A stretch of DNA of 64,000 bases from Sinimarinibacterium sp. NLF-5-8 (GCF_010092425.1 NZ_CP048030.1:496001-560000); one strand, 5' to 3'; positions 3,101 to 19,445 are shown, counted from the first letter of the stretch. The notes: generated by a model from the sequence alone, not told the origin. Numbers and translations are program-made.

Positions 3101-3424
3101 ATGAGCAAGCAGAACAAGTTTTCCCCTGAAGTCCGCGAACGCGCCGTACGCCTGGTGCAGGAGCATCGTGGCGAGTATCCGTCGCTGTGGGCGGCCGTCG
3201 AGTCCATTGCGCCGAAGATCGGTTGCGTGCCGACCACGCTGCTGGATTGGGTCAAGCGTAGCGAGATCGACAGCGGTACGCGTGACGGCATGACCACCAG
3301 CGAACGCGAGCGGATGAAGGCCTTGGAGCGAGAGAATAAAGAACTGCGCCGGGCCAACGAGATTCTGAAGTCGGCCAGTGCTTTTTTCGCCCAGGCGGCG
3401 CTCGACCGCGAACTGAAGAAGTAA
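3101..3424 (+). CDS. IS3-family transposase OrfA
   Basis: The product is 107 residues with an N-terminal helix-turn-helix of the transposase_8 type ([17 protein letters not shown]) and a C-terminal leucine-zipper-like helix ([18 protein letters not shown]). It binds the element's terminal repeats and is normally fused to OrfB by a -1 frameshift. The OrfB phase is open from at least 3382 onward, upstream of the orfA stop at 3424. Slippage could occur at the T6 run at 3382 or at the GAAGAAG near 3415. Confidence 0.9.
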
Positions 3425-3477
3425 ACGCCTATATCGACCGGCACCGGGACGTTTACGGGGTCGAGCCGATCTGCAAG

Positions 3478-4329
3478 GTGTTGCAGGTTGCCCCATCGGC
3501 GTATCGGCGTCATGCCGCCCGCCAACGACGTCCAGAACTGCGCAGTGCGCGCAGCCAGCGCGACGAGGGTTTGATGGCGCAGATTCGACGTGTCTGGCAA
3601 GCCAACATGCAGGTCTACGGCGTACGCAAGGTCTGGCATCAACTGCAGCGTGAAGGCATTGCCGTGGCCCGCTGCACGGTCGAACGTCTGATGCGTCGCC
3701 TGGGATTGCAGGGTGTGCGTCGGGGCAAGCGGGTGCGCACCACGATTGCTGACGGTTCGCAGGCCTGCCCGCTCGATCGCGTCAATCGCCACTTCCACGC
3801 GGACAGGCCCAATCAGTTATGGGTGTCGGACTTCACCTATGTGTCGACCTGGCAAGGCTGGCTGTATGTGGCCTTCGTCATTGACGTATTCGCCCGCCGC
3901 ATCGTCGGCTGGCGCGTGAGCAACACCATGAGTACAGACTTCGTGTTGGATGCCCTGGAACAGGCTCTGTATGACCGACGTCCCACCGACACCCTGACTC
4001 ACCATTCCGATCGAGGATCGCAATACGTGTCCATCCGCTATACCGAACGCCTGGCCGAGGCAGGCATCAAACCGTCCGTGGGTAGCCGCGGCGACAGCTA
4101 TGACAACGCCTTGGCTGAAACCATCAATGGGCTTTACAAGGCCGAATTGATTCATCGCCGAGCGCCCTGGAAAACCCGGGCTGCTGTGGAGTTGGCAACG
4201 TTGGAATGGGTCGCTTGGTACAACCATCAACGCCTGCTCGGGTCCATCGGGTATATTCCTCCTGCACAGGCGGAAGAACTCTATCACCGTACCCACTCTG
4301 ACGCTGTGCCGATGAACGCTGTACTTTAA
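3478..4329 (+). CDS. IS3-family transposase OrfB (DDE integrase domain)
   Basis: It carries an HTH_21 region (MQVYGVRKVWHQLQREG) and a retroviral-integrase-like core. The DDE residues are visible in VSDFTYVST, HHSDRGSQYVS and SYDNALAETINGLYKAE. The coordinates use the first listed GTG. The natural product is more likely the OrfAB fusion made by -1 frameshifting, because the same frame reads back as [27 protein letters not shown] before 3478, the expected start of this domain. The 3' end reaches to within 33 bp of the right inverted repeat. Confidence 0.9.
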   Translation: MLQVAPSAYRRHAARQRRPELRSARSQRDEGLMAQIRRVWQANMQVYGVRKVWHQLQREGIAVARCTVERLMRRLGLQGVRRGKRVRTTIADGSQACPLDRVNRHFHADRPNQLWVSDFTYVSTWQGWLYVAFVIDVFARRIVGWRVSNTMSTDFVLDALEQALYDRRPTDTLTHHSDRGSQYVSIRYTERLAEAGIKPSVGSRGDSYDNALAETINGLYKAELIHRRAPWKTRAAVELATLEWVAWYNHQRLLGSIGYIPPAQAEELYHRTHSDAVPMNAVL

Positions 4330-6124: not shown

Positions 6125-7318
6125 ATGCCCATCGCACGGGAAATCAACAAAGGTCGAGTGCCAATCAAAATCTGGACGGATGACATTGAGTCCGCCGCGT
6201 TTGAGCAATTGACGGCTATGTCGCATCTGGACATTGTGCATCCGCATATTGCTGTGATGCCCGACGTTCACTTCGGGATCGGCGCAACTGTGGGTTCTGT
6301 CATCCCGACCCTTCGAGCCATTATCCCCGCTGCGGTTGGCGTCGATATTGGCTGTGGCATGTGTTACGCGCGGCTATCGCTTCGCGTTGAGCAACTGCCA
6401 GATAGCTTGAAGGCGGTGCGCGAGGCGATTGAAGACGCAGTGCCAGTGGGCTTCAACCAGCACGCGGAAGCTGCCAATACCAAGGCTTTGCAACCGCTGG
6501 TCAACGGGTTTAATCGGGTTCTGGAATTAGCGCCACAGATCAAAAGCATGATGCGCAATCCTGAGTCCACCATGCACCTGCAATGCGGCACGCTGGGCGG
6601 TGGTAATCATTTCATCGAACTGGTACACGACGAGCAGGGTAACGTAGGCGTCATGCTGCACAGCGGCTCACGCGGCATTGGCAACAACATTGGCCGCCAC
6701 TTCATTGAGCTGGCCAAGACGGAAATGGAGCGATTGGACAAGCGGCTGCCGTCGCGTGATCTGGCCTATCTGCGTGAGGGCACGGCATCCTACGATGATT
6801 ATTGTTTTGCGGTGGATTGGGCGCAGCAGTATGCGCGACTCAACCGCGAGATCATGATGCAGCTCGTACTGGGAGCGCTGGCAAAGGTTTTACCGCCGTT
6901 TGTGGTGACGGAAGAAGCGGTGAACTGTCACCACAACTATGTGAGCACTGAGCACCACTATGGACAGCATGTCCACGTCACCCGCAAGGGCGCAATCCGC
7001 GCGGGACTGGGTGAACTGGGGATCATCCCTGGCAGCATGGGCACGCGCAGCTATATCGTGCGCGGCAAGGGTAACTCGGAAAGCCTGTGCAGTTGCTCGC
7101 ATGGCGCGGGACGCCGATTGTCACGAGGCAAAGCCAAGAAAGTTTTTACCCAAGCCGACCTGGAAGCGCAAACGCAAGGCGTCGAGTGTCGAAAGGACGC
7201 CGGTGTTCTCGATGAAATCCCTGGCGCGTACAAGGATATTGATGTGGTGATGGCTCAACAAAGCGATCTGGTGGAGATCGTTCACACACTCAAGCAGTTG
7301 GTGTGCGTGAAGGGATGA
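6125..7318 (+). CDS. rtcB: RtcB family RNA-splicing ligase
   Basis: The 397 residues are close to the usual RtcB length. RtcB joins RNA 3'-phosphate or 2',3'-cyclic phosphate ends to 5'-OH ends using GTP and Mn2+, and repairs tRNA or rRNA cut by toxins. Metal-binding and active-site motifs are in order: MPDVHFG, VDIGCGM, LGGGNHFIE, HSGSRG, HHNYV and CSHGAGR, whose His is the guanylylated residue. It is a single-gene unit with its own promoter, 5' hairpin and terminator. There is no archease or RtcA nearby, so this is a stand-alone copy of the kind carried by phages and plasmids, plausibly countering host tRNA-cutting defences. Confidence 0.93.
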   Translation: MPIAREINKGRVPIKIWTDDIESAAFEQLTAMSHLDIVHPHIAVMPDVHFGIGATVGSVIPTLRAIIPAAVGVDIGCGMCYARLSLRVEQLPDSLKAVREAIEDAVPVGFNQHAEAANTKALQPLVNGFNRVLELAPQIKSMMRNPESTMHLQCGTLGGGNHFIELVHDEQGNVGVMLHSGSRGIGNNIGRHFIELAKTEMERLDKRLPSRDLAYLREGTASYDDYCFAVDWAQQYARLNREIMMQLVLGALAKVLPPFVVTEEAVNCHHNYVSTEHHYGQHVHVTRKGAIRAGLGELGIIPGSMGTRSYIVRGKGNSESLCSCSHGAGRRLSRGKAKKVFTQADLEAQTQGVECRKDAGVLDEIPGAYKDIDVVMAQQSDLVEIVHTLKQLVCVKG

Positions 7319-7487: not shown

Positions 7488-7745
7488 TTATTCCTCCAAG
7501 CCCAAATAAGCTAAAAACAAACCGAAAGCTAATCCGAGTAAGGCCAAACAAAGCCCTGCTGGATGAACATTCACATCGCACAGCGGCGCGATCAGCAATC
7601 CGCCTGACCCGACGAAGATCGTTTGACCAATGCTGCGCATCATTTCCCGCAAGTAAGTCGGATTGCGACCCTTTGCATAGGCACTTGCGGCTGCCGCAAT
7701 GATGCCGACTAACTTCTGCAACAACATTTGAAAGTCCAAATTCAT
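7488..7745 (-). CDS. Small membrane protein, 85 aa, two helices
   Basis: The ATG at 7745 has GGAG five bases upstream, which is why I prefer it to the longer reading from 7790. The N-terminal part is amphipathic with a short hydrophobic stretch (LVGIIAAAASAYA), the middle is basic (KGRNPTYLREMMR), and the C-terminal half is strongly hydrophobic (GLCLALLGLAFGLFLAYLGL). No family is recognised; a holin-like or membrane-stress role is possible but unproven. Its stop is 3 bp from the next start. An island promoter motif lies at 7825-7794 on the same strand. Confidence 0.65.
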   Translation of the reverse strand: MNLDFQMLLQKLVGIIAAAASAYAKGRNPTYLREMMRSIGQTIFVGSGGLLIAPLCDVNVHPAGLCLALLGLAFGLFLAYLGLEE

Positions 7746-7793
7746 TGTACTCCAAAGCAAACCCGTGAGCGGCGGGCGTGATGAACTCACGCA

Positions 7794-7825
7794 GCTCTAG
7801 ATCCAGCGTTTGGGATCGCCTGTGG
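7794..7825 (-). promoter_or_regulatory. Island promoter motif, minus strand
   Basis: On the minus strand CCACAGG (7825-7819) is followed after 19 nt by TAGAGC (7799-7794). The left half of the usual TTATCCACAGG box is degenerate here. It would drive the two small membrane protein genes. Confidence 0.45.
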
Positions 7826-7907: not shown

Positions 7908-8036
7908 TCAGCCAGCAAGAAACGCCAGCAAAACCCCGAACATCATTGCCGCCGCCACGCCCACAGCGAGCGCAGCGGCGGCCCCGGCCACGCCAACAAG
8001 CGTGACCAAAATCAGTAACACGATTTCCATAGCCAT
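7908..8036 (-). CDS. Tiny hydrophobic membrane protein, 42 aa
   Basis: An ATG at 8036 (or 8030, better spaced from GGGGA) opens a 42-codon frame that is almost entirely hydrophobic: EIVLLILVTLVGVAGAAAAL, then AVGVAAAMMFGVLLAFLAG. It has a leader hairpin of the island type upstream and a clean terminator downstream, which is why I accept so short a gene. Its function is unknown; single-helix or hairpin phage or toxin peptides look like this. Confidence 0.55.
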   Translation of the reverse strand: MAMEIVLLILVTLVGVAGAAAALAVGVAAAMMFGVLLAFLAG

Positions 8037-8081
8037 ATCCCCAAAAGCCCCGAGTCAGGGCGAAAGACTCGAAGGCTCTAG
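8037..8081 (-). promoter_or_regulatory. CTAGAG promoter hexamer and leader hairpin, minus strand
   Basis: On the minus strand CTAGAG (8081-8076) is followed by GAGTCTTTC, then GCCC-tgactcg-GGGC and TTTT, then the start region of the 42-residue gene. It shares the order GAG, TTTC, hairpin, T-run with the three plus-strand leaders at 8123, 13216 and 14013. Confidence 0.5.
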
Positions 8082-8122: not shown

Positions 8123-8178
8123 CTAGAGATGCCGAGTTATTCGCGCTACTCAGCGCTTTTGTCCAAGGAGGACACAAA
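8123..8178 (+). promoter_or_regulatory. CTAGAG hexamer, leader hairpin and SD hairpin
   Basis: CTAGAG (8123-8128) is followed by a GCGCT/AGCGC stem with loop ACTC (8143-8156) and a T4 run. Then GTCC (8161-8164) and GGAC (8170-8173) bracket the AAGGAG ribosome site. It could act as a small attenuator or as a translation switch. Covariation with the copies at 13216 and 14013 supports the stem. Confidence 0.55.
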
Positions 8179-8448
8179 ATGGCACACACAGTGACCTATT
8201 CAGTCAGCGAGGTCGTGAACCTCGCTGACTGCCGCGCTCTCTCAACCCGGCAAGAAATTTCCGGGCTGGGAGAAATCTCGCTTGTTCTTCCCTTCGGGGC
8301 GGAACAAGCGAGCGCCACCAAGCGCCGCGTCATGAGGGTGTTTGGTGGTTTGAAAACCACGCTGGGCGCAGATGCTGCGCTCGAGTGGCTGGGCGAGGTG
8401 CTGTCCGACTTTGAGGCGGTTAGCCGCCTCATCGGACAGAACAACTAA
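8179..8448 (+). CDS. Hypothetical protein, 89 aa, in a structured-RNA cassette
   Basis: It starts at an ATG behind AAGGAGGACACAAA. The protein is soluble and mixed-composition, beginning MAHTVTYSVSEVVNLADC and ending SRLIGQNN; I do not recognise the family. It is the first of three genes (8179, 13274, 14070) that share the leader hairpin, the SD context, the 3' ACGCGA/ATCGC structure and the terminator stem. A common regulatory regime is likely. Confidence 0.7.
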   Translation: MAHTVTYSVSEVVNLADCRALSTRQEISGLGEISLVLPFGAEQASATKRRVMRVFGGLKTTLGADAALEWLGEVLSDFEAVSRLIGQNN

Positions 8449-8453
8449 GACTC

Positions 8454-8496
8454 AGGCTGACGCGACAGCCTGCATCCAAGGGCACAAGCCCATCGC
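8454..8496 (+). ncRNA. 3' UTR structured element, copy 1 (putative pseudoknot)
   Basis: AGGCTG-ACGCGA-CAGCCT forms a 6-bp hairpin (8454-8471). A second stem GGGC/GCCC (8480-8491) is followed directly by ATCGC (8492-8496). The UCGC of the tail is complementary to the GCGA of the first loop. Loop and tail are invariant among three copies while both stems change with pairing kept. The element lies a few bases after the stop codon and before the terminator. Confidence 0.6.
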
Positions 8497-8506
8497 GCGT
8501 GTCACA

Positions 8507-8536
8507 AACCCACTGCTTTTTGCAGTGGGTTTTTCT
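8507..8536 (+). terminator. Rho-independent terminator of the shared stem family
   Basis: AACCCACTGC and GCAGTGGGTT form a perfect stem with a T5 loop, followed by TTTTC. Confidence 0.85.
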
Positions 8537-8599
8537 TTGGGCTGGCTGTTTGTGGCAGATACCGTAATCCCACACACGCCACATACTTTGTCTGAAAAT

Positions 8600-11536
8600 A
8601 TGAACCGAATCACTCATCACAGCATTGCCGCTGCCGCCGCCATCGTTTTTTGCGCGCCCGCAGCCTTCGCCCAATCCACTGTTCGCCTGTCCTCTGATCT
8701 GTATGTGGTGCCTGTTGGCACCTCTGAGGTCGCCGTCACCATCTCACGCCCCATCGCGGGCGCTGCCATCGGCGCGGTGGAACAGGTGTTTTATCGCACC
8801 CAGGAAGTGCACGGGCAACCCGGACAGGAGGCAGCGCTCGACGGTGTGCACTACATCGGGCGATCCGGCACCCTGACATGGGCTGAGGATGATTTTGCTG
8901 ACAAGACGGTCACGGTCAGTCTGCTCAACCGCAGCGGCATTACCCAGACTCATAGTTTCGGGTTCGCCCTGGAGGACGATCAGGGCAATCCGGTGGCCGC
9001 GCCCAGTACAGCGGAAATTCGCATCATGGGCACGCAGACCCAGCCCGCAGTCGTACAGTTGACCGCCGACACTTACAGCGTTGCCGTCAGCCAGAATGAG
9101 GCCGTCATCAATATCTCGCGGCGCAATACCGGCACCGCACCGGCTGCACAGATTTTTTATAAAACCCGCGATCTGACTGCCGCCGATGGTGTGCATTACC
9201 AGGGTCAGACCGGCACGATTGATTTTGCCGCCAACGACTTTGCGACCAAACAGATTCGGATTCCGATCCTGCACCGAGATCAAATCCTGAACACCCTGAA
9301 CTTTCAGGTGGAGTTGGTGGACGCCGTAGGCGAGCAGCTTGGCGCAACCACGCTGGCCCAGGTGCAGGTGCTGGGAACACTCGATGCCGGAGCGGGGCAG
9401 GCGCGGTTTGCGTCCAGCACGATTCGCCCCGCCGCGTCAGCCACCAGCGCAACGGTGGATGTGCTGCGAAGCAATGGCGGGCAGGGCAAGGCGACGGTAC
9501 GGGTCCGCACCGTGGACAGCCAGGGTCTGGTGAATCCACTGGATCAGACACTTGAGTTTGGCGACGGCCAGACCGGGCCGCTCAGTGTCACGATCACAGG
9601 TGTTGCGCCGCGTGAACAACGACAAACGCCTGTCGTCGTCACTCTTGAGCTTCTGGAAGCGCAGGGCTTTGAGCTGGGTCAGCCGAACACGGTGGATGTG
9701 GTCTTTGCCGAGCGTGAAGCTGATGCTGCGGCGGATCATACGTCCAGCACCGGCTTCGAGGTGCTGAGTCGCACAGTCGGCGCGGGTGCGACTCAGGCGG
9801 TGGGCATCGTCAATCGCACCAGCGCATCGGATCAGCCGTTGCGGATCAATTATGTGATCAGGGACGTGAGCAGCCAGGCGGGGGTGGACTATCCGGTTGG
9901 CGACGCATCCGGGGTGATCGAGTATGCCGCTGGTGAAACCGGCTTTAAGCAGATCGTGGTGAACCTGTCCAATCCCAATCGCACATCCAGCCGTCAGTTC
10001 GTGATCGAGCTGAGTTCCACCTCGGACGAACTGGATGCTTCCCGCGCGGAACAGACGGTGACGTTGCAGGCTACATCGCCTGATCAGCCGGGGCAGGTGG
10101 GCAGTATCCGCGTCGAAAGTCAAGGCGTGGTCCTGCGTAATCCAGATGTCACCAGCGTGACCATTCCGGTTTCGCGTAGCGGCCCATCGGACTCGTTGCC
10201 CGCCACGGTCAATTTCACGGCCAGCGGCAGTGCTGAACCGGGAACGGACTATGACGCCTCCACAGCGTCCGGCACGCTGTCGTGGAGCGCGGGCGACAAC
10301 TCGCTCAAGCTGGTCACGGTTGCATTGCTCAACCCTTCGGAGCCTCGCCCCACCCGCGACCTGGTGATCAGTTTCAGTGGTACGGGGGTTGTGCCGGGTG
10401 CCAATCGCTTTACCGCCACGCTGCCGCCCATTGTCGCGGATCAGCCTGCCGGAACAGGGGTCATTCGCTTTGACGATGTGGCCGTGCGGGTGCCGCATGA
10501 CGTATCTGAGGTCAATCTGGTGGTGGCGCGCGCGGGCACGAAGCCGCTGGCACCGGCAACGGTTTCGCTGCGCACCATCGACGGTGACAAGGCGATTGGC
10601 GGGCGGGATTTTCAGTCCACAGTCGAGCAATTGAGCTGGGGCCAGGATGAAACGGGCTTGCGTCAGATCGCCATCCCGATTTTGCGGACATCCGATCAAC
10701 CGCGCACGTTCACGGTCAAAATGACGGGCGACGGGGTGAATGCCGAGCAGTCCACGCTGACGGTCGTGCTTGCTGCCGCGCCTGCCGAGCCGGTTCCGAC
10801 CGCTGGCAGCGCCCGTTTTGCGCCCAGCCAGGTCACGATCCCGGCAACGGTCACGCGCTTCCCCATCACTGTGCTGCGCACCAGCGGACAAGGTGTTCTG
10901 GAAGTATTGGCCGTGCCGCAAACGCTGGGCATCCAGAACCCTGCGCAACAGGGCGTTGACTACGACATTGATCTGTCCAGCCGTACCTTGCGCTGGGAGG
11001 CGGGCGATCAGTCGCCCCGTGAAATCATGATCACGCGCCCGGCGCTGAGCGCCGGAGACAGCAGCTTTACGTTGAAGCTGGTCAAGGTCAACGGAGACAA
11101 TCTGCCCGGTGTCGATCCGGTACTGGTCACGATCCAGGGCACTCGTCATGTCCCGCCTGCCGACACGATCGGTTTTGTGGAGGCTCAAGGCAGTGTGGGC
11201 ATTCATGCGCCAGGGCAGACCTATCCCCTGGTGCTGCGCCGCCAGGGTGATCAGCCGGGTTCGGTGTCCGTGACGATCAGCGGCAGTGATGGCAGCGAAT
11301 ATCGCGTGGTGTGGAGCAATGGTGATTACGCGGATAAGACGGTGGTGGTGCGGTTGCCTGACCCTGCTTTTGAGCGCAATGGCAGCATCGTTTACACGAT
11401 CAATTTGCTCAATGATGATGCACGCACCAGCCAGAGCGTGTTTGAACTCAAGATCAAGAACGGCGGCGGCGGTGCAATGGGGCTGTGGTTGATGCCACTG
11501 GTCGCCCTGTTCGGACTGCGGCGACGCAAGCGTTAA
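8600..11536 (+). CDS. Calx-beta repeat surface protein with GlyGly-CTERM tail
   Basis: The product is 978 residues from the ATG at 8600; a longer reading from 8372 overlaps the previous gene and lacks a signal peptide. The signal peptide ends near AFAQ (about residue 26). About eight tandem domains of 105-115 residues follow, most with the Calx-beta pattern of a GVDY- or GVHY-type turn, then GTLxWxxGDxxxKxVxVxLL. The end reads NGGGGAMGLWLMPLVALFGL then RRRKR, a GlyGly-CTERM sorting tail. It is expected to be exported by type II secretion and held at or released from the surface; adhesion or Ca2+ binding is inferred from the fold. No TAGAGT motif is evident upstream; the space at 8537-8599 holds nothing I recognise. 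Confidence 0.85.
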   Translation: MNRITHHSIAAAAAIVFCAPAAFAQSTVRLSSDLYVVPVGTSEVAVTISRPIAGAAIGAVEQVFYRTQEVHGQPGQEAALDGVHYIGRSGTLTWAEDDFADKTVTVSLLNRSGITQTHSFGFALEDDQGNPVAAPSTAEIRIMGTQTQPAVVQLTADTYSVAVSQNEAVINISRRNTGTAPAAQIFYKTRDLTAADGVHYQGQTGTIDFAANDFATKQIRIPILHRDQILNTLNFQVELVDAVGEQLGATTLAQVQVLGTLDAGAGQARFASSTIRPAASATSATVDVLRSNGGQGKATVRVRTVDSQGLVNPLDQTLEFGDGQTGPLSVTITGVAPREQRQTPVVVTLELLEAQGFELGQPNTVDVVFAEREADAAADHTSSTGFEVLSRTVGAGATQAVGIVNRTSASDQPLRINYVIRDVSSQAGVDYPVGDASGVIEYAAGETGFKQIVVNLSNPNRTSSRQFVIELSSTSDELDASRAEQTVTLQATSPDQPGQVGSIRVESQGVVLRNPDVTSVTIPVSRSGPSDSLPATVNFTASGSAEPGTDYDASTASGTLSWSAGDNSLKLVTVALLNPSEPRPTRDLVISFSGTGVVPGANRFTATLPPIVADQPAGTGVIRFDDVAVRVPHDVSEVNLVVARAGTKPLAPATVSLRTIDGDKAIGGRDFQSTVEQLSWGQDETGLRQIAIPILRTSDQPRTFTVKMTGDGVNAEQSTLTVVLAAAPAEPVPTAGSARFAPSQVTIPATVTRFPITVLRTSGQGVLEVLAVPQTLGIQNPAQQGVDYDIDLSSRTLRWEAGDQSPREIMITRPALSAGDSSFTLKLVKVNGDNLPGVDPVLVTIQGTRHVPPADTIGFVEAQGSVGIHAPGQTYPLVLRRQGDQPGSVSVTISGSDGSEYRVVWSNGDYADKTVVVRLPDPAFERNGSIVYTINLLNDDARTSQSVFELKIKNGGGGAMGLWLMPLVALFGLRRRKR

Positions 11537-11555
11537 AACCTGAGTTGTGTGTGTA

Positions 11556-11589
11556 GGCCCTGCCGGGTTCGCTCGGTGGGGCTTTTTTG
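11556..11589 (+). terminator. Rho-independent terminator
   Basis: GGCCCTGCCGGG and CTCGGTGGGGC pair imperfectly around TTCG and are followed by T6. Its T-run abuts the next promoter box at 11587. Confidence 0.7.
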
Positions 11590-11624
11590 TCCACAGGCAA
11601 AACGCTCAGGCACAACGCTAGAGC
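11587..11624 (+). promoter_or_regulatory. Island promoter motif upstream of the ATP-grasp gene
   Basis: TTGTCCACAGG (11587-11597) precedes TAGAGC (11619-11624) by 21 nt, 28 nt before the ATG at 11653. One base of the DnaA-like box deviates. Confidence 0.5.
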
Positions 11625-11652
11625 GAAAGAACTTCTCGATTTTGGAACTCCC

Positions 11653-12504
11653 ATGCACCCCCCTTTGTGGATCGTTCACTCGCACCTGCTCACCATCAAT
11701 GATGAAGACAGCGGCCATGCGTTCTCGCGGGCGCTTGCCAAGCACCGCAATTTTCTGGTGGTCGGCGACCATGTGAGTGAGCGGCAGATCGACGCATTCA
11801 ACGAGTCCGAACAGCCGATCATCGCCTACGGCTCGATCCAGTTCATTCGCCAGTTTCAGCGATGGACGAAGGGGATCGTGCCTGGCAGTTATGCGCCGTT
11901 TGAGCGACTGCGCTATTCGAACGTCGCACCGCGCATGGTCGATGTGGGGTTGCTCAATGACAACTACCTGATGTTGCCGTGGTGCGAGGTCAAACGCGGC
12001 TGGAGCTGGCTTCTGACGGCAGCGCCGACCGGGGGTGAGCCGATGCCTGGGTTATTTGTTCGTCCCGATGCCAGCCACAAGCCGTTTGCTGGGCAGGTGT
12101 TTGCCACATATCCGCATACGCAAGGCCGCGAGATCGACGACACGACGTTGTGTGTTTTTGCGCCTGCGAAACGGCTGGAAGCCGAATACCGGGTGGTCAT
12201 TGCCAATCGCCAGGTGGTGACGGCGAGCCAATACATGCAGGACGGTGAGCCTTGCGTGCAGCCGTTCGAGATCGAAAGCGACCCTGAAACGCTGGGATTG
12301 GCACAGCGGATCGCTGAGATGCCCTGGCAGCCGGATATCTGCTATACCGCAGACATTGGCTTGTGGGAAGGCCACCCGAAGCTGATCGAGATCAACAGCT
12401 TTTCCTGTGCGGGCCTGTACGCCTGCGATTACGCAAAAATCATTGAGGCGGTCAGCCACGCGGCAATGCTTGAATATACAGGGGCGTTGACGCTGGAAGA
12501 TTGA
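11653..12504 (+). CDS. ATP-grasp domain protein (phage-type, DUF4343-like)
   Basis: The product is 283 residues from the ATG at 11653 with GGAAC upstream; the longer reading from 11587 runs through the promoter motif. The C-terminal half resembles an ATP-grasp core: a conserved GLFVRPDASHKPFAGQVF segment, LEAEYRVVIANRQVVTASQY, and the metal-binding end IGLWEGHPKLIEINSFSCAGLY. Members of this family occur in phages and plasmids and are thought to make an amide or peptide-like bond; the substrate is unknown. It is a single-gene unit. Confidence 0.75.
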   Translation: MHPPLWIVHSHLLTINDEDSGHAFSRALAKHRNFLVVGDHVSERQIDAFNESEQPIIAYGSIQFIRQFQRWTKGIVPGSYAPFERLRYSNVAPRMVDVGLLNDNYLMLPWCEVKRGWSWLLTAAPTGGEPMPGLFVRPDASHKPFAGQVFATYPHTQGREIDDTTLCVFAPAKRLEAEYRVVIANRQVVTASQYMQDGEPCVQPFEIESDPETLGLAQRIAEMPWQPDICYTADIGLWEGHPKLIEINSFSCAGLYACDYAKIIEAVSHAAMLEYTGALTLED

Positions 12505-12598
12505 GGATTTGGTCGTGATCGCCTTTCGATGCCAACGAATCGGGTTTCGCGCAGCAGACCCTATGAGCCTGTCAACTTGTGTGGAATTAAGGCAAAAG

Positions 12599-12628
12599 AA
12601 AAACCCACTGAAAAAATCAGTGGGTTTT
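12599..12628. terminator. Bidirectional terminator (shared stem family)
   Basis: AAAACCCACTGA and TCAGTGGGTTTT are nearly perfect complements. It ends the ATP-grasp gene rightward and the small membrane pair leftward. Confidence 0.8.
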
Positions 12629-12642
12629 GGTGGGGGGGGTAC

Positions 12643-12762
12643 TCAGTTTTTCGATTCGGATGCCTTTCGGTCAGCGTCCATTGACTTGCTGACCGTGACC
12701 AGCAGCCCAAAGAACGCGAGTACAAGCATCCCCATGATGGGGCCAACGACCGAAAAGTCCAT
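12643..12762 (-). CDS. Single-pass small membrane protein, 39 aa (second copy of the pair plan)
   Basis: It starts at the ATG at 12762 behind AAAGGAGATTGAG. One hydrophobic helix (VVGPIMGMLVLAFFGLLVTV) precedes a charged tail (SKSMDADRKASESKN). The length equals that of the 39-residue protein at 7365-7484, and it too is the second gene of a leftward pair, though I see no close sequence identity. Its function is unknown. Confidence 0.6.
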   Translation of the reverse strand: MDFSVVGPIMGMLVLAFFGLLVTVSKSMDADRKASESKN

Positions 12763-12763
12763 C

Positions 12764-12994
12764 TCAATCTCCTTTTTGCAGCCCGAATGAACACATCTTA
12801 GCGCCAATGATGAACGCAAAAAAAGATGCGACGACGCCAGCAACCGGCACAATCTTTGCCCCAAACAGCGGAGCAAACATCAAGGCCACTGATGCTGCGA
12901 CCAGGCTTTTGCCAAAGTCTAACATCAATTTTCGCCATTTCACCTGGTCGAAGCCGTCGATGTGATCTCTCACGGCCTGGACAACAACAGACAA
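12764..12994 (-). CDS. Small membrane protein, 76 aa, two helices
   Basis: The likely start is TTG at 12994 with AGGA five bases upstream; no in-frame ATG is available near it. The N-terminal part is soluble and charged (VRDHIDGFDQVKWRKLMLDF). Two hydrophobic segments follow (SLVAASVALMFAPLFGA and VPVAGVVASFFAFIIGA). The stop falls within the ribosome site of the next gene, so the two are coupled. It parallels the 85-residue protein at 7488-7745. Function is unknown. The space upstream (12995-13131) has no recognised promoter motif on this strand. Confidence 0.55.
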   Translation of the reverse strand: MSVVVQAVRDHIDGFDQVKWRKLMLDFGKSLVAASVALMFAPLFGAKIVPVAGVVASFFAFIIGAKMCSFGLQKGD

Positions 12995-13131
12995 AAAATC
13001 CTGAGCATCGAAAACCCCCTTGAATAAGCTCAGAAGCTCTCGCGGGGCGGCGAAGAATTATTTTTGGTGACTGGTTGGGCGAAGGAGGCGCGACGGTGCG
13101 GGCTGAACTTCATCGTTTGCCTAGAGGGGAA

Positions 13132-13189
13132 GTCAACCACCCCACCCTGAAGGATGGGGCTTGTTGGGAAACCAATAAGCCAGGTTGAC
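13132..13189 (+). repeat. IS200/IS605-end-like hairpin
   Basis: GTCAACC (13132-13138) and GGTTGAC (13183-13189) form an outer pair. Inside, CCCCACCC-TGAA-GGATGGGG forms a strong hairpin. The string GTCAACCACCCC followed by a C-rich/TGAA/G-rich hairpin is characteristic of IS200/IS605 ends. No tnpA or tnpB is present, so it is a relic or a hijacked structure. Confidence 0.45.
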
Positions 13190-13215
13190 GAACACCCTAA
13201 AAATCCTGGCGTGAC

Positions 13216-13273
13216 CTAGAGCGTGCGAGTTTTTCTTTCGCCCGCTCAGGGCTTTTTTGTCCAGGAGGACATC
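13216..13273 (+). promoter_or_regulatory. CTAGAG hexamer, leader hairpin and SD hairpin
   Basis: CTAGAG (13216-13221) is followed by GAG and a T-rich stretch, then GCCC-GCTCA-GGGC (13240-13252) and T6. TGTCC-AGGA-GGACA (13258-13271) places the ribosome site in a second hairpin. It is related to the leaders at 8123 and 14013. Confidence 0.55.
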
Positions 13274-13843
13274 ATGGCACAAGTTCACAATCTCGTTTCC
13301 CCCGCCACCGCCACCGCCACCGGCGCCCACGCGCCGGGGGTAAAACTCGATGCGGGTAAACCCCGCATGGAGCTGGTGTTCGGCGGCTTTGCCGCCGCCA
13401 TCAAGGGGCTGCAAGGCTTCCCCGCCTTGTACGGGCACCCAGTAGACCGGCTCTTGGCCGGGGTTCTGCGGCACCTGGCGCACCCTGGCGACGAGCCGCT
13501 GTACGCGGCAGCCGGGGCCGCCATTGGCGCCCTTGAGGCGCTCGAGCGGTCGCTGGGCGGGGCGCCTGGCATGGGTGTCGGGCATGACATGGCGCTGGCA
13601 CTCCCCCGCGCATTTCTAGCGGTGGGGCAAGTCGCCACTTTCGGAGCGCAGAAGTATTCCGATGGCGGCTGGCGCACCGTGCCGGATGGCGTGCGGCGTT
13701 ACCGCGACGCGGCCTACCGGCACCTGCTCAAATCTCGCATTGAAGAATGCGATGAAGAAAGCGGCTTGCCGCATCTGGCGCACCTGGCGTGGAACATGCT
13801 CGCGGTTTTGGAGCTGTCCATCGCAAAGGAGCGAGGCGAGTAA
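13274..13843 (+). CDS. DUF5664 / dATP-dGTP diphosphohydrolase N-terminal domain-like phage protein
   Basis: The product is 189 residues from the ATG at 13274 behind CAGGAGGACATC. Diagnostic segments are VKLDAGKPRMELVFGGF near the N-terminus, VATFGAQKYSDGGWRTVPDG, RYRDAAYRHLL and ESGLPHLAHLAWNMLAVLEL. These match the phage family annotated as dATP/dGTP diphosphohydrolase N-terminal domain (DUF5664), a MazG-like helical fold acting on nucleotides. A role in shaping the dNTP pool for the element is plausible. It is the second structured-RNA cassette. Confidence 0.75.
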   Translation: MAQVHNLVSPATATATGAHAPGVKLDAGKPRMELVFGGFAAAIKGLQGFPALYGHPVDRLLAGVLRHLAHPGDEPLYAAAGAAIGALEALERSLGGAPGMGVGHDMALALPRAFLAVGQVATFGAQKYSDGGWRTVPDGVRRYRDAAYRHLLKSRIEECDEESGLPHLAHLAWNMLAVLELSIAKERGE

Positions 13844-13850
13844 CACCTTG

Positions 13851-13897
13851 GGGCTGACGCGACAGCCTTATCACCCAAGTGGATTTATCCACATCGC
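13851..13897 (+). ncRNA. 3' UTR structured element, copy 2 (putative pseudoknot)
   Basis: GGGCTG-ACGCGA-CAGCCT (13851-13868, one G-U pair), then GTGG-atttat-CCAC (13879-13892), then ATCGC (13893-13897). It has the same order and the same invariant loop and tail as the copies at 8454 and 14489, with different stem sequences. Confidence 0.6.
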
Positions 13898-13967
13898 AGC
13901 CAGGTGCTGGTTATCAAGGGAGTAGCAACCCTCGGTAACACACAACAGTCCTGGTCATCGGCATCCA

Positions 13968-13998
13968 AACCCCACTGGTTTTTCCAGTGGGGTTTTTC
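13968..13998 (+). terminator. Rho-independent terminator of the shared stem family
   Basis: AACCCCACTGG and CCAGTGGGGTT are perfect complements followed by T-rich sequence. The TAGAGC of the next unit lies 16 nt beyond it. Confidence 0.85.
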
Positions 13999-14012
13999 TT
14001 TGGGGCAAGACG

Positions 14013-14069
14013 CTAGAGCAGGGGAGATTTTTCGCCCCGCTCAGGGTTTGTTTCCAAAGGAGGACATTT
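14013..14069 (+). promoter_or_regulatory. CTAGAG hexamer and leader hairpin
   Basis: CTAGAG (14013-14018) is followed by GAGATTTTTCG, CCC-GCTCA-GGG (14036-14046) and TTTGTTT, then AAAGGAGGACA. The second hairpin around the ribosome site is weak here (TCC/GGA). Confidence 0.5.
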
Positions 14070-14480
14070 TTGGAAAAAATTGCTGTCCGGGTAGTTGGAG
14101 AACTACCCAAGGATAGCTTCGCCCACTTTGCGCTTGTTGCGCAACGTGGAAACACTTATTTCATACGCGAAGCGTATGAAGTAGGGCACTGGATCGAGGC
14201 TGCCTACGGGGACTTTGCCCGTTTTTTTGGCAGCCGCGACGAAGTGAAGGCGCCATATGAAACCCTCCGTGTACTGGATGGTTCCATGTGGGAGCTGGAC
14301 AAGCGCGATGTCATGGCGCTGTCCCAGTCAGTCACCTTCACGCATTACGACCGCGTGACCGCATCCGTCTGCCACAAATCGCAGGTGGTCAAAGATGGTC
14401 ATGCGCGTAAGGCGTGCGCGCAGGTGATTGAAAAAGCCCTGTCCCTGTCGGACCGGGTTTTTCTCGCCTTTCTGGCGTAG
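14070..14480 (+). CDS. Hypothetical protein, 136 aa, TTG start
   Basis: The frame opens at TTG 14070, ideally spaced from AAAGGAGGACA; there is no ATG nearby, so TTG is the probable start. The protein is soluble, beginning MEKIAVRVVGELPKDSFAHF, with a basic C-terminal part and ending FLAFLA. No family is recognised. It is the third cassette with leader hairpin, 3' ACGCGA structure and shared terminator. Confidence 0.7.
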   Translation: MEKIAVRVVGELPKDSFAHFALVAQRGNTYFIREAYEVGHWIEAAYGDFARFFGSRDEVKAPYETLRVLDGSMWELDKRDVMALSQSVTFTHYDRVTASVCHKSQVVKDGHARKACAQVIEKALSLSDRVFLAFLA

Positions 14481-14488
14481 CTATCTCG

Positions 14489-14534
14489 AAGCCGACGCGA
14501 CGGCTTTGTCTCTCAGCGGCTTTTGCCGCATCGC
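14489..14534 (+). ncRNA. 3' UTR structured element, copy 3 (putative pseudoknot)
   Basis: AAGCCG-ACGCGA-CGGCTT (14489-14506), then GCGGC-tttt-GCCGC (14516-14529), then ATCGC (14530-14534). Both stems differ in sequence from the other copies but remain fully paired. This is the strongest covariation evidence in the set. Confidence 0.65.
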
Positions 14535-14549
14535 ACCCACCCACCAACC

Positions 14550-14580
14550 AACCCACTGCTTTTTTGCAGTGGGTTTTTTC
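14550..14580 (+). terminator. Rho-independent terminator of the shared stem family
   Basis: AACCCACTGC and GCAGTGGGTT form a perfect stem with a T6 loop, followed by T4. Confidence 0.85.
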
Positions 14581-16442: not shown

Positions 16443-16479
16443 TTATCCACAGCCTGTTTTTTTTCGGTTTTCCTAGAGT
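16443..16479 (+). promoter_or_regulatory. Island promoter motif upstream of the DUF3268 gene
   Basis: TTATCCACAGC (16443-16453) precedes TAGAGT (16474-16479) by 20 nt, with a T8 run in the spacer. The start codon is 33 nt downstream. Confidence 0.6.
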
Positions 16480-17045: not shown

Positions 17046-17086
17046 GATAGCTTGCAGGTTTTGCGTAGCAAAAGATGCGAGTTATC
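17046..17086 (+). repeat. Promoter-associated palindrome, copy 2
   Basis: GATAGCTTGCA pairs imperfectly with TGCGAGTTATC, with a TTTTGC/GCAAAA inner stem. It overlaps the promoter box that starts at 17082. The prefix TTATCCAAAGCGTAGCG precedes it. Confidence 0.6.
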
Positions 17087-17118
17087 AACAGGCGGTTCTG
17101 TGCCCATTTTTCTAGAGT
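17082..17118 (+). promoter_or_regulatory. Island promoter motif
   Basis: TTATCAACAGG (17082-17092) precedes TAGAGT (17113-17118) by 20 nt. It drives the two-gene unit 17160-18241. Confidence 0.6.
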
Positions 17119-18383: not shown

Positions 18384-18424
18384 GATAACTTATATGGTTT
18401 GCGCAGCAAAACATATAAGTTATC
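18384..18424 (+). repeat. Promoter-associated palindrome, copy 4 (perfect arms)
   Basis: GATAACTTATATG (18384-18396) and CATATAAGTTATC (18412-18424) are exact complements, with inner TTTGC/GCAAA arms and a 3-nt centre. The right arm overlaps the promoter box starting at 18420. Confidence 0.75.
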
Positions 18425-18456
18425 AACAGGCAATTCCGTGACGCTTTTTCTAGAGT
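18420..18456 (+). promoter_or_regulatory. Island promoter motif upstream of the second methyltransferase
   Basis: TTATCAACAGG (18420-18430) precedes TAGAGT (18451-18456) by 20 nt. As with the methylase at 14641, exactly four bases (GTGC) separate TAGAGT from the ATG. Confidence 0.6.
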
Positions 18457-19377: not shown

Positions 19378-19445
19378 CTTATATGGTTTTACGCAGCAAA
19401 ACATGCGAGTTATCAACAGTCGGTTCTCACCCGTCTGGCTAGAGG
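19378..19445 (+). promoter_or_regulatory. Island promoter motif with partial palindrome
   Basis: A right-hand part of the 41-nt palindrome (19378-19414) leads into TTATCAACAGT (19410-19420), and TAGAGG follows at 19440-19445 after 19 nt. The start codon is 29 nt beyond. Confidence 0.5.

Follow-up and report, generated by a model that had tools for sequence, protein, structure and literature searches.

The locus and its island

The window, a stretch of 64,000 nucleotides from the genome of Sinimarinibacterium sp. NLF-5-8, contains three genes that carry the same short candidate RNA element directly behind their stop codons and the same type of leader in front of their start codons (Table 1). 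Pattern search and a covariance model together place six copies of the element in the genome, at 408752(-), 424282(+), 431608(-), 504447(+), 509844(+) and 510482(+). Three of the six lie within the window, and all six are inside a single island (~362-515 kb). The six proteins encoded in front of them have no detectable similarity to one another, and the protein of gene 3 has no tblastn match in plasmids. Near copy 1 the island carries an RtcB RNA ligase gene (PF01139, E=4e-121; window 6125-7318), and an IS200/IS605-type-like end (CCACCCCACCCTGAAGGATGGGGCTT) occupies window 13133-13190, just 5' of the gene 2 leader.

Table 1. Genes, leaders, 3' elements and terminators in the window (positions from the first nucleotide of the window).
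Feature	Position	Strand	Description
Second leader of the same type, opposite strand	7744..7800	-	its genes lack the 3' element
Leader of the same type	8020..8081	-	precedes a 42-aa ORF lacking the 3' element
Gene 1 leader	8123..8178	+	CTAGAG box, hairpin GCGCT-ACTC-AGCGC then U-run, Shine-Dalgarno hairpin TGTCC-AAGGA-GGACA
Gene 1	8179..8448	+	89 aa; no family in Pfam, PHROGs or NCBIfam
Copy 1	8453..8497	+	whole 3' element
Copy 1, stem 1	8453-8459/8466-8472	+	CAGGCTG/CAGCCTG
Copy 1, loop	8460-8465	+	ACGCGA
Copy 1, linker	8473-8479	+	
Copy 1, stem 2	8480-8483/8488-8491	+	GGGC/GCCC
Copy 1, tail	8492-8497	+	ATCGCG; 5-bp pseudoknot possible
Terminator after copy 1	8506..8532	+	intrinsic
Gene 2 leader	13216..13273	+	CTAGAG box, hairpin GCCC-GCTCA-GGGC then U-run, Shine-Dalgarno hairpin TGTCC-AGGA-GGACA
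Gene 2	13274..13843	+	189 aa; dATP/dGTP diphosphohydrolase N-terminal domain (PF18909, E=1.4e-24)
Copy 2	13849..13897	+	whole 3' element
Copy 2, stem 1	13849-13856/13863-13870	+	TGGGGCTG/CAGCCTTA
Copy 2, loop	13857-13862	+	ACGCGA
Copy 2, stem 2	13879-13883/13888-13892	+	GTGGA/TCCAC
Copy 2, tail	13893-13897	+	ATCGC
Terminator after copy 2	13967..13995	+	intrinsic; ~70 nt 3' of the element
Gene 3 leader	14013..14069	+	CTAGAG box, hairpin GCCC-CGCTCA-GGGT, Shine-Dalgarno region with a weaker hairpin
Gene 3	14070..14480	+	136 aa, TTG start; no known family
Copy 3	14487..14534	+	whole 3' element
Copy 3, stem 1	14487-14494/14501-14508	+	CGAAGCCG/CGGCTTTG
Copy 3, loop	14495-14500	+	ACGCGA
Copy 3, stem 2	14516-14520/14525-14529	+	GCGGC/GCCGC
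Copy 3, tail	14530-14534	+	ATCGC
Terminator after copy 3	14550..14575	+	intrinsic

The island is marked by a composite sequence, TTATCMACAG-N19-CTAGAG, in which a DnaA-box-like 9-mer stands at the place of a -35 box. The genome contains 35 such composites, 34 of them at 362.7-515.4 kb; among the 369 genomes sampled from the class, a single other one has it, at one site. In the 8-kb bins that flank the island both the CTAGAG box and the TTATCMACA 9-mer are absent. The composite, which occurs in the window at 851-885, 16443-16478, 17082-17117, 18420-18455 and 19410-19444, may represent an island-specific promoter type. The island encodes F-type TraC and TraG, the former closest (38%) to TraC of large Variovorax and Halomonas plasmids, and from these transfer genes we infer an integrated conjugative element or plasmid. 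Other residents of the island include a TnpB-like ORF (genome 449460-450521). A related series of ORFs starting MQTF..HxF, with hexapeptide-like repeats, is found at genome 396-416 kb (L114) and in L001, and many of these ORFs are preceded by a TTATCMACAG..CTAGAG promoter of their own. Repeats resembling attC also appear to be present around 407 kb, as read from the sequence.

The shared 5' leader

The leader is common to all six genes that bear the element, and consists of the CTAGAG box, a short hairpin whose loop includes CUC, a U-run in most cases, and a hairpin that contains the Shine-Dalgarno sequence. Both hairpins vary in their stems: the small one reads GCGCU/AGCGC, GCCCU/AGGGC and others, and that with the Shine-Dalgarno sequence also changes (UGUCC/GGACA, GCACC/GGUGC), its loop being AGGA in all but one of the six leaders. 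The genes with this leader encode ArdC (PF08401/PF18818), a YqaJ-type recombinase, the dATP/dGTP diphosphohydrolase-like protein and small ORFs, with ardC among those framed by leader and 3' element alike. At least four other island genes, the YqaJ recombinase gene among them, have a leader of the same type and no 3' element (besides the two in Table 1, such leaders lie at L119 1476-1543, minus strand, and at genome 447317), and the element is therefore not an obligatory companion of the leader. Direct pairing between leader and element was considered and rejected, as the duplex energies of the six cognate pairs were no better than those of shuffles.

Structure of the 3' element

A preliminary description, which covered the three window copies but neither the leader, nor the other three copies, nor the surrounding island, had reported a first stem of 6 bp with an invariant loop ACGCGA, a linker, a second stem and an invariant tail ATCGC, a few bases behind three unrelated genes. 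The places of the copies, the order of their parts and their 3' UTR position all hold. A descriptor that requires ACGCGA as a hexaloop on a stem of five or more base pairs, followed by a hairpin directly 5' of ATCGC, matches the window three times and never in 100 dinucleotide-preserving shuffles. The bare motif ACGCGA..ATCGC is not rare (7 observed, 3.1 expected), so the significance comes from the structure. The length of the first stem had to be corrected, since on RNA folding each copy has a stem of 7-8 bp whose basal pairs include G-U.

The element begins 4, 5, 6, 5, 5 and 5 nt behind the stop codon in the six copies, and its distance to the terminator varies from <15 to ~70 nt. With the former spacing fixed and the latter variable, the element holds its place relative to the ORF, which fits a job directed to the ORF rather than to termination.

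A covariance model (R1) was built from five copies, with the copy at 431608 left out. It scores all six at 58-79 bits, the next-best match in the 3.2 Mb genome reaching 18 bits. The copy left out (431608-431662, minus strand) has the loop ACACGA and the tail ATCGTGT, against ACGCGA and ATCGC elsewhere. The claimed invariance of loop and tail is thus true of the window copies and fails in this sixth one, in which both change together.

Covariation was assessed on an alignment of the six copies whose fit took in the two nested stems but not the pseudoknot, with the pairs of the latter written in. Over 18 pairs, 96.2% of the pair cells are formed and seven pairs are changed on both sides, values that none of 500 shuffles reach, with few independent events behind them because all copies are paralogues in one genome. 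When the partner was slid by 1-3 columns, the covariation signal was lost in all of the slid structures. At its base, stem 1 has U-A in three copies and C-G in another two, and one pair of stem 2 occurs as U-A, G-C and C-G. The covarying character of both stems, as first described, is in this way supported. G-U pairs are also conserved (column pair 7-26 in 5/5, 8-25 in 4/6); in DNA or in the antisense strand the same positions would be mismatched, which points to sense RNA.

The same description had suggested that the loop pairs with the tail, and the support for this comes from outside the window. All six copies allow the pairs 16-54 to 19-51. The first of these, 16-54, is G-C except in the copy at 431608, which has A-U and in which a loop G to A change is matched by a tail C to T change (ACACGA with ATCGT), so that pairing is kept. 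This is a single compensatory event, and a matching pair would arise by chance at roughly 1 in 15 by our estimate. The geometry read from the sequence is standard for a pseudoknot: the two stems abut directly, loop 1 has 1-2 nt and the third loop is long. The best reading of the element is thus a predicted H-type pseudoknot with a stem 1 of 7-8 bp, a stem 2 of 4-6 bp formed by hexaloop and tail, and an extra hairpin within the third loop.

Search for relatives

The preliminary description knew of no named family with this layout and proposed a search of Rfam and of phage and plasmid genomes with a covariance model. No relative emerged there or in related genomes. R1 found nothing beyond chance in the sampled genomes of the family (58), order (85), class (369) and phylum (398; overlapping sets, >800 related genomes), or in six plasmids with a related TraC. 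Exact patterns in GTDB contigs and viral contigs (IMG/VR) gave chance matches only, and blastn against phages and plasmids likewise returned nothing beyond chance. The weak model matches in relatives, at ~20-30 bits, are GC-rich and, where inspected, resemble coding sequence; one in L111, considered as a homologue, was rejected as marginal and chance-like.

In Rfam 15 no element matches a family at its gathering score, and permissive scans of the elements gave only sub-threshold hits with unrelated names. The only Rfam match of the window is an ALIL frameshift pseudoknot (RF01497, 104 bits) at 3379-3495, in an IS3-family transposase gene. A literature search found no description of such an element. 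As no known RNA family matches, the element looks like a new 3'-end RNA module, and it is so far known from one genome.

Possible functions of the element

A 3' roadblock or a protein handle are most likely the modes in which an element of this kind would act. The explanation that we favour, tentatively and with less than even confidence, is that of a new 3'-UTR pseudoknot module belonging to an island regulon that includes ardC, and acting as a roadblock to 3' exonucleases. The pseudoknot would close, on the 3' side, an RNA frame with two ends, made up of structured leader, single ORF, pseudoknot and terminator; within the one integrated conjugative island, this frame encloses accessory genes that are unrelated to one another. 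Once the last ribosome has left, the pseudoknot would fold directly behind the stop codon and stop 3'-to-5' exonucleases that have already removed the terminator hairpin, and the whole ORF would stay translatable for longer.

A handle for a protein or small RNA would account for the sequence facts almost as well. In this reading a single factor of the island or the host would recognise the pseudoknot on all six mRNAs and govern the stability or translation of the whole set, the 5' leader serving as a second control point; we hold this to be possible, if on the unlikely side. The sequences GACRCGAC, the CCAA-type linker and AUCG are nearly constant beyond what pairing needs, and both ends are common to one class of unrelated genes, yet such constancy could equally reflect recent ancestry. 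No candidate partner emerged: tblastn with the E. coli sequences, a weak test, found no CsrA, Hfq or ProQ relative in the island. The sequence facts behind the roadblock are equally predicted by a role in protein binding, which counts against the roadblock as the sole reading.

It is improbable, in our judgement, that the element addresses the terminating ribosome, with the pseudoknot at the mRNA entry while the stop codon occupies the A site, slowing release, recycling or reinitiation, or giving readthrough in the manner of viral readthrough pseudoknots. The 4-6 nt spacing in all six copies despite unrelated ORFs speaks for this, and recoding pseudoknots sit several nucleotides 3' of the recoding site (PMC3835772), yet the spacing may simply be inherited with the 3' unit. 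Stop-codon readthrough itself was rejected: it would add no common extension to the proteins, as copy 1 meets a stop after three codons and copy 3 reads the element in another frame, UAA, UAG and UGA serve alike, and no open, conserved extension frame is found.

The copies could also lack any function as RNA and be mere common flanking sequence that recombination among gene cassettes has spread. The copies at window 13849 and genome 408752 are indeed nearly identical over ~60 nt, from the stop codon to past the tail, and similar terminators stand behind many island genes. Neutral DNA, however, would not keep 96% of its pairs with seven changed on both sides, and what the six copies have in common lies mainly in the part that folds, which leaves this explanation decidedly improbable. 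Least credible of all is a function at the level of DNA, whether as an integron attC site, as a palindrome of the REP or MITE kind, or as a hairpin that single-stranded DNA forms during transfer. In its favour, cassette ORFs are likewise followed closely by attC sites, and the island looks conjugative and seems to have the repeats near 407 kb. Against it, the element always stands in sense orientation behind a gene and has the conserved G-T mismatches in its DNA form. An attC site was rejected because the surroundings of all copies lack RYYYAAC and the element itself lacks GTTRRRY, the sole GTTRRRY lying 114 nt downstream of one copy.

A broader and rather doubtful proposal is that a matched 5' switch and 3' pseudoknot, the latter at a constant distance from the stop codon, mark a whole class of unrelated genes and are read by one dedicated factor or by the terminating ribosome. 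If true, this would be a two-ended post-transcriptional regulon from a mobile element, which to our knowledge has not been described in bacteria; structured bacterial 3'-UTR elements common to unrelated genes have themselves, as far as we know, rarely been described. The pseudoknot and common leader on ardC and other genes offer a small, testable module of post-transcriptional control of accessory genes by a mobile element, and a possible tool for mRNA stabilisation.

Comparison with known systems

H-type pseudoknots with a hairpin in loop 3 are known, for example, from preQ1-II riboswitches. The element resembles these in the order of stem 1, loop-tail stem 2 and inserted hairpin, and differs in its place, as preQ1-II is a 5' ligand switch and the element lies behind a stop codon and before a terminator, with no Rfam model match. 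The pseudoknot antitoxin RNAs ToxI and AntiQ occur as tandem repeats before a toxin gene. They share with the element the character of small repeated pseudoknots on mobile elements, whereas the element is present as one copy behind each of six different genes, and no ToxN-type toxin was found, in a search run without a positive control.

Viral recoding pseudoknots also stand a few nucleotides behind a stop codon (PMC3835772); the element, in contrast, has no conserved reading frame behind the stop. The 3' UTRs of icaR and hbs are functional bacterial 3' UTRs with a proposed regulatory role, which pair with their own 5' UTR (PMC7821165), unlike the element, whose pairing with the leader does not exceed that of shuffles.

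A further likeness is to the establishment regulons of the conjugative plasmids pLS20 and p576, in which one regulatory sequence (EGeRS1/EGeRS2) is repeated before ardC and other unrelated accessory genes of a single conjugative element, as described in the portion of PMC8708921 available. In the island the same leader likewise precedes the genes for ArdC, YqaJ, the dGTP-diphosphohydrolase-like protein and small ORFs, alongside F-type TraC and TraG. Hosts and sequences differ, and in that portion of PMC8708921 the repeated sequence is upstream only, with no shared 3' RNA element described. By this analogy, the genes framed by leader and pseudoknot are best read as a putative regulon of accessory genes, comparable to these two establishment regulons.
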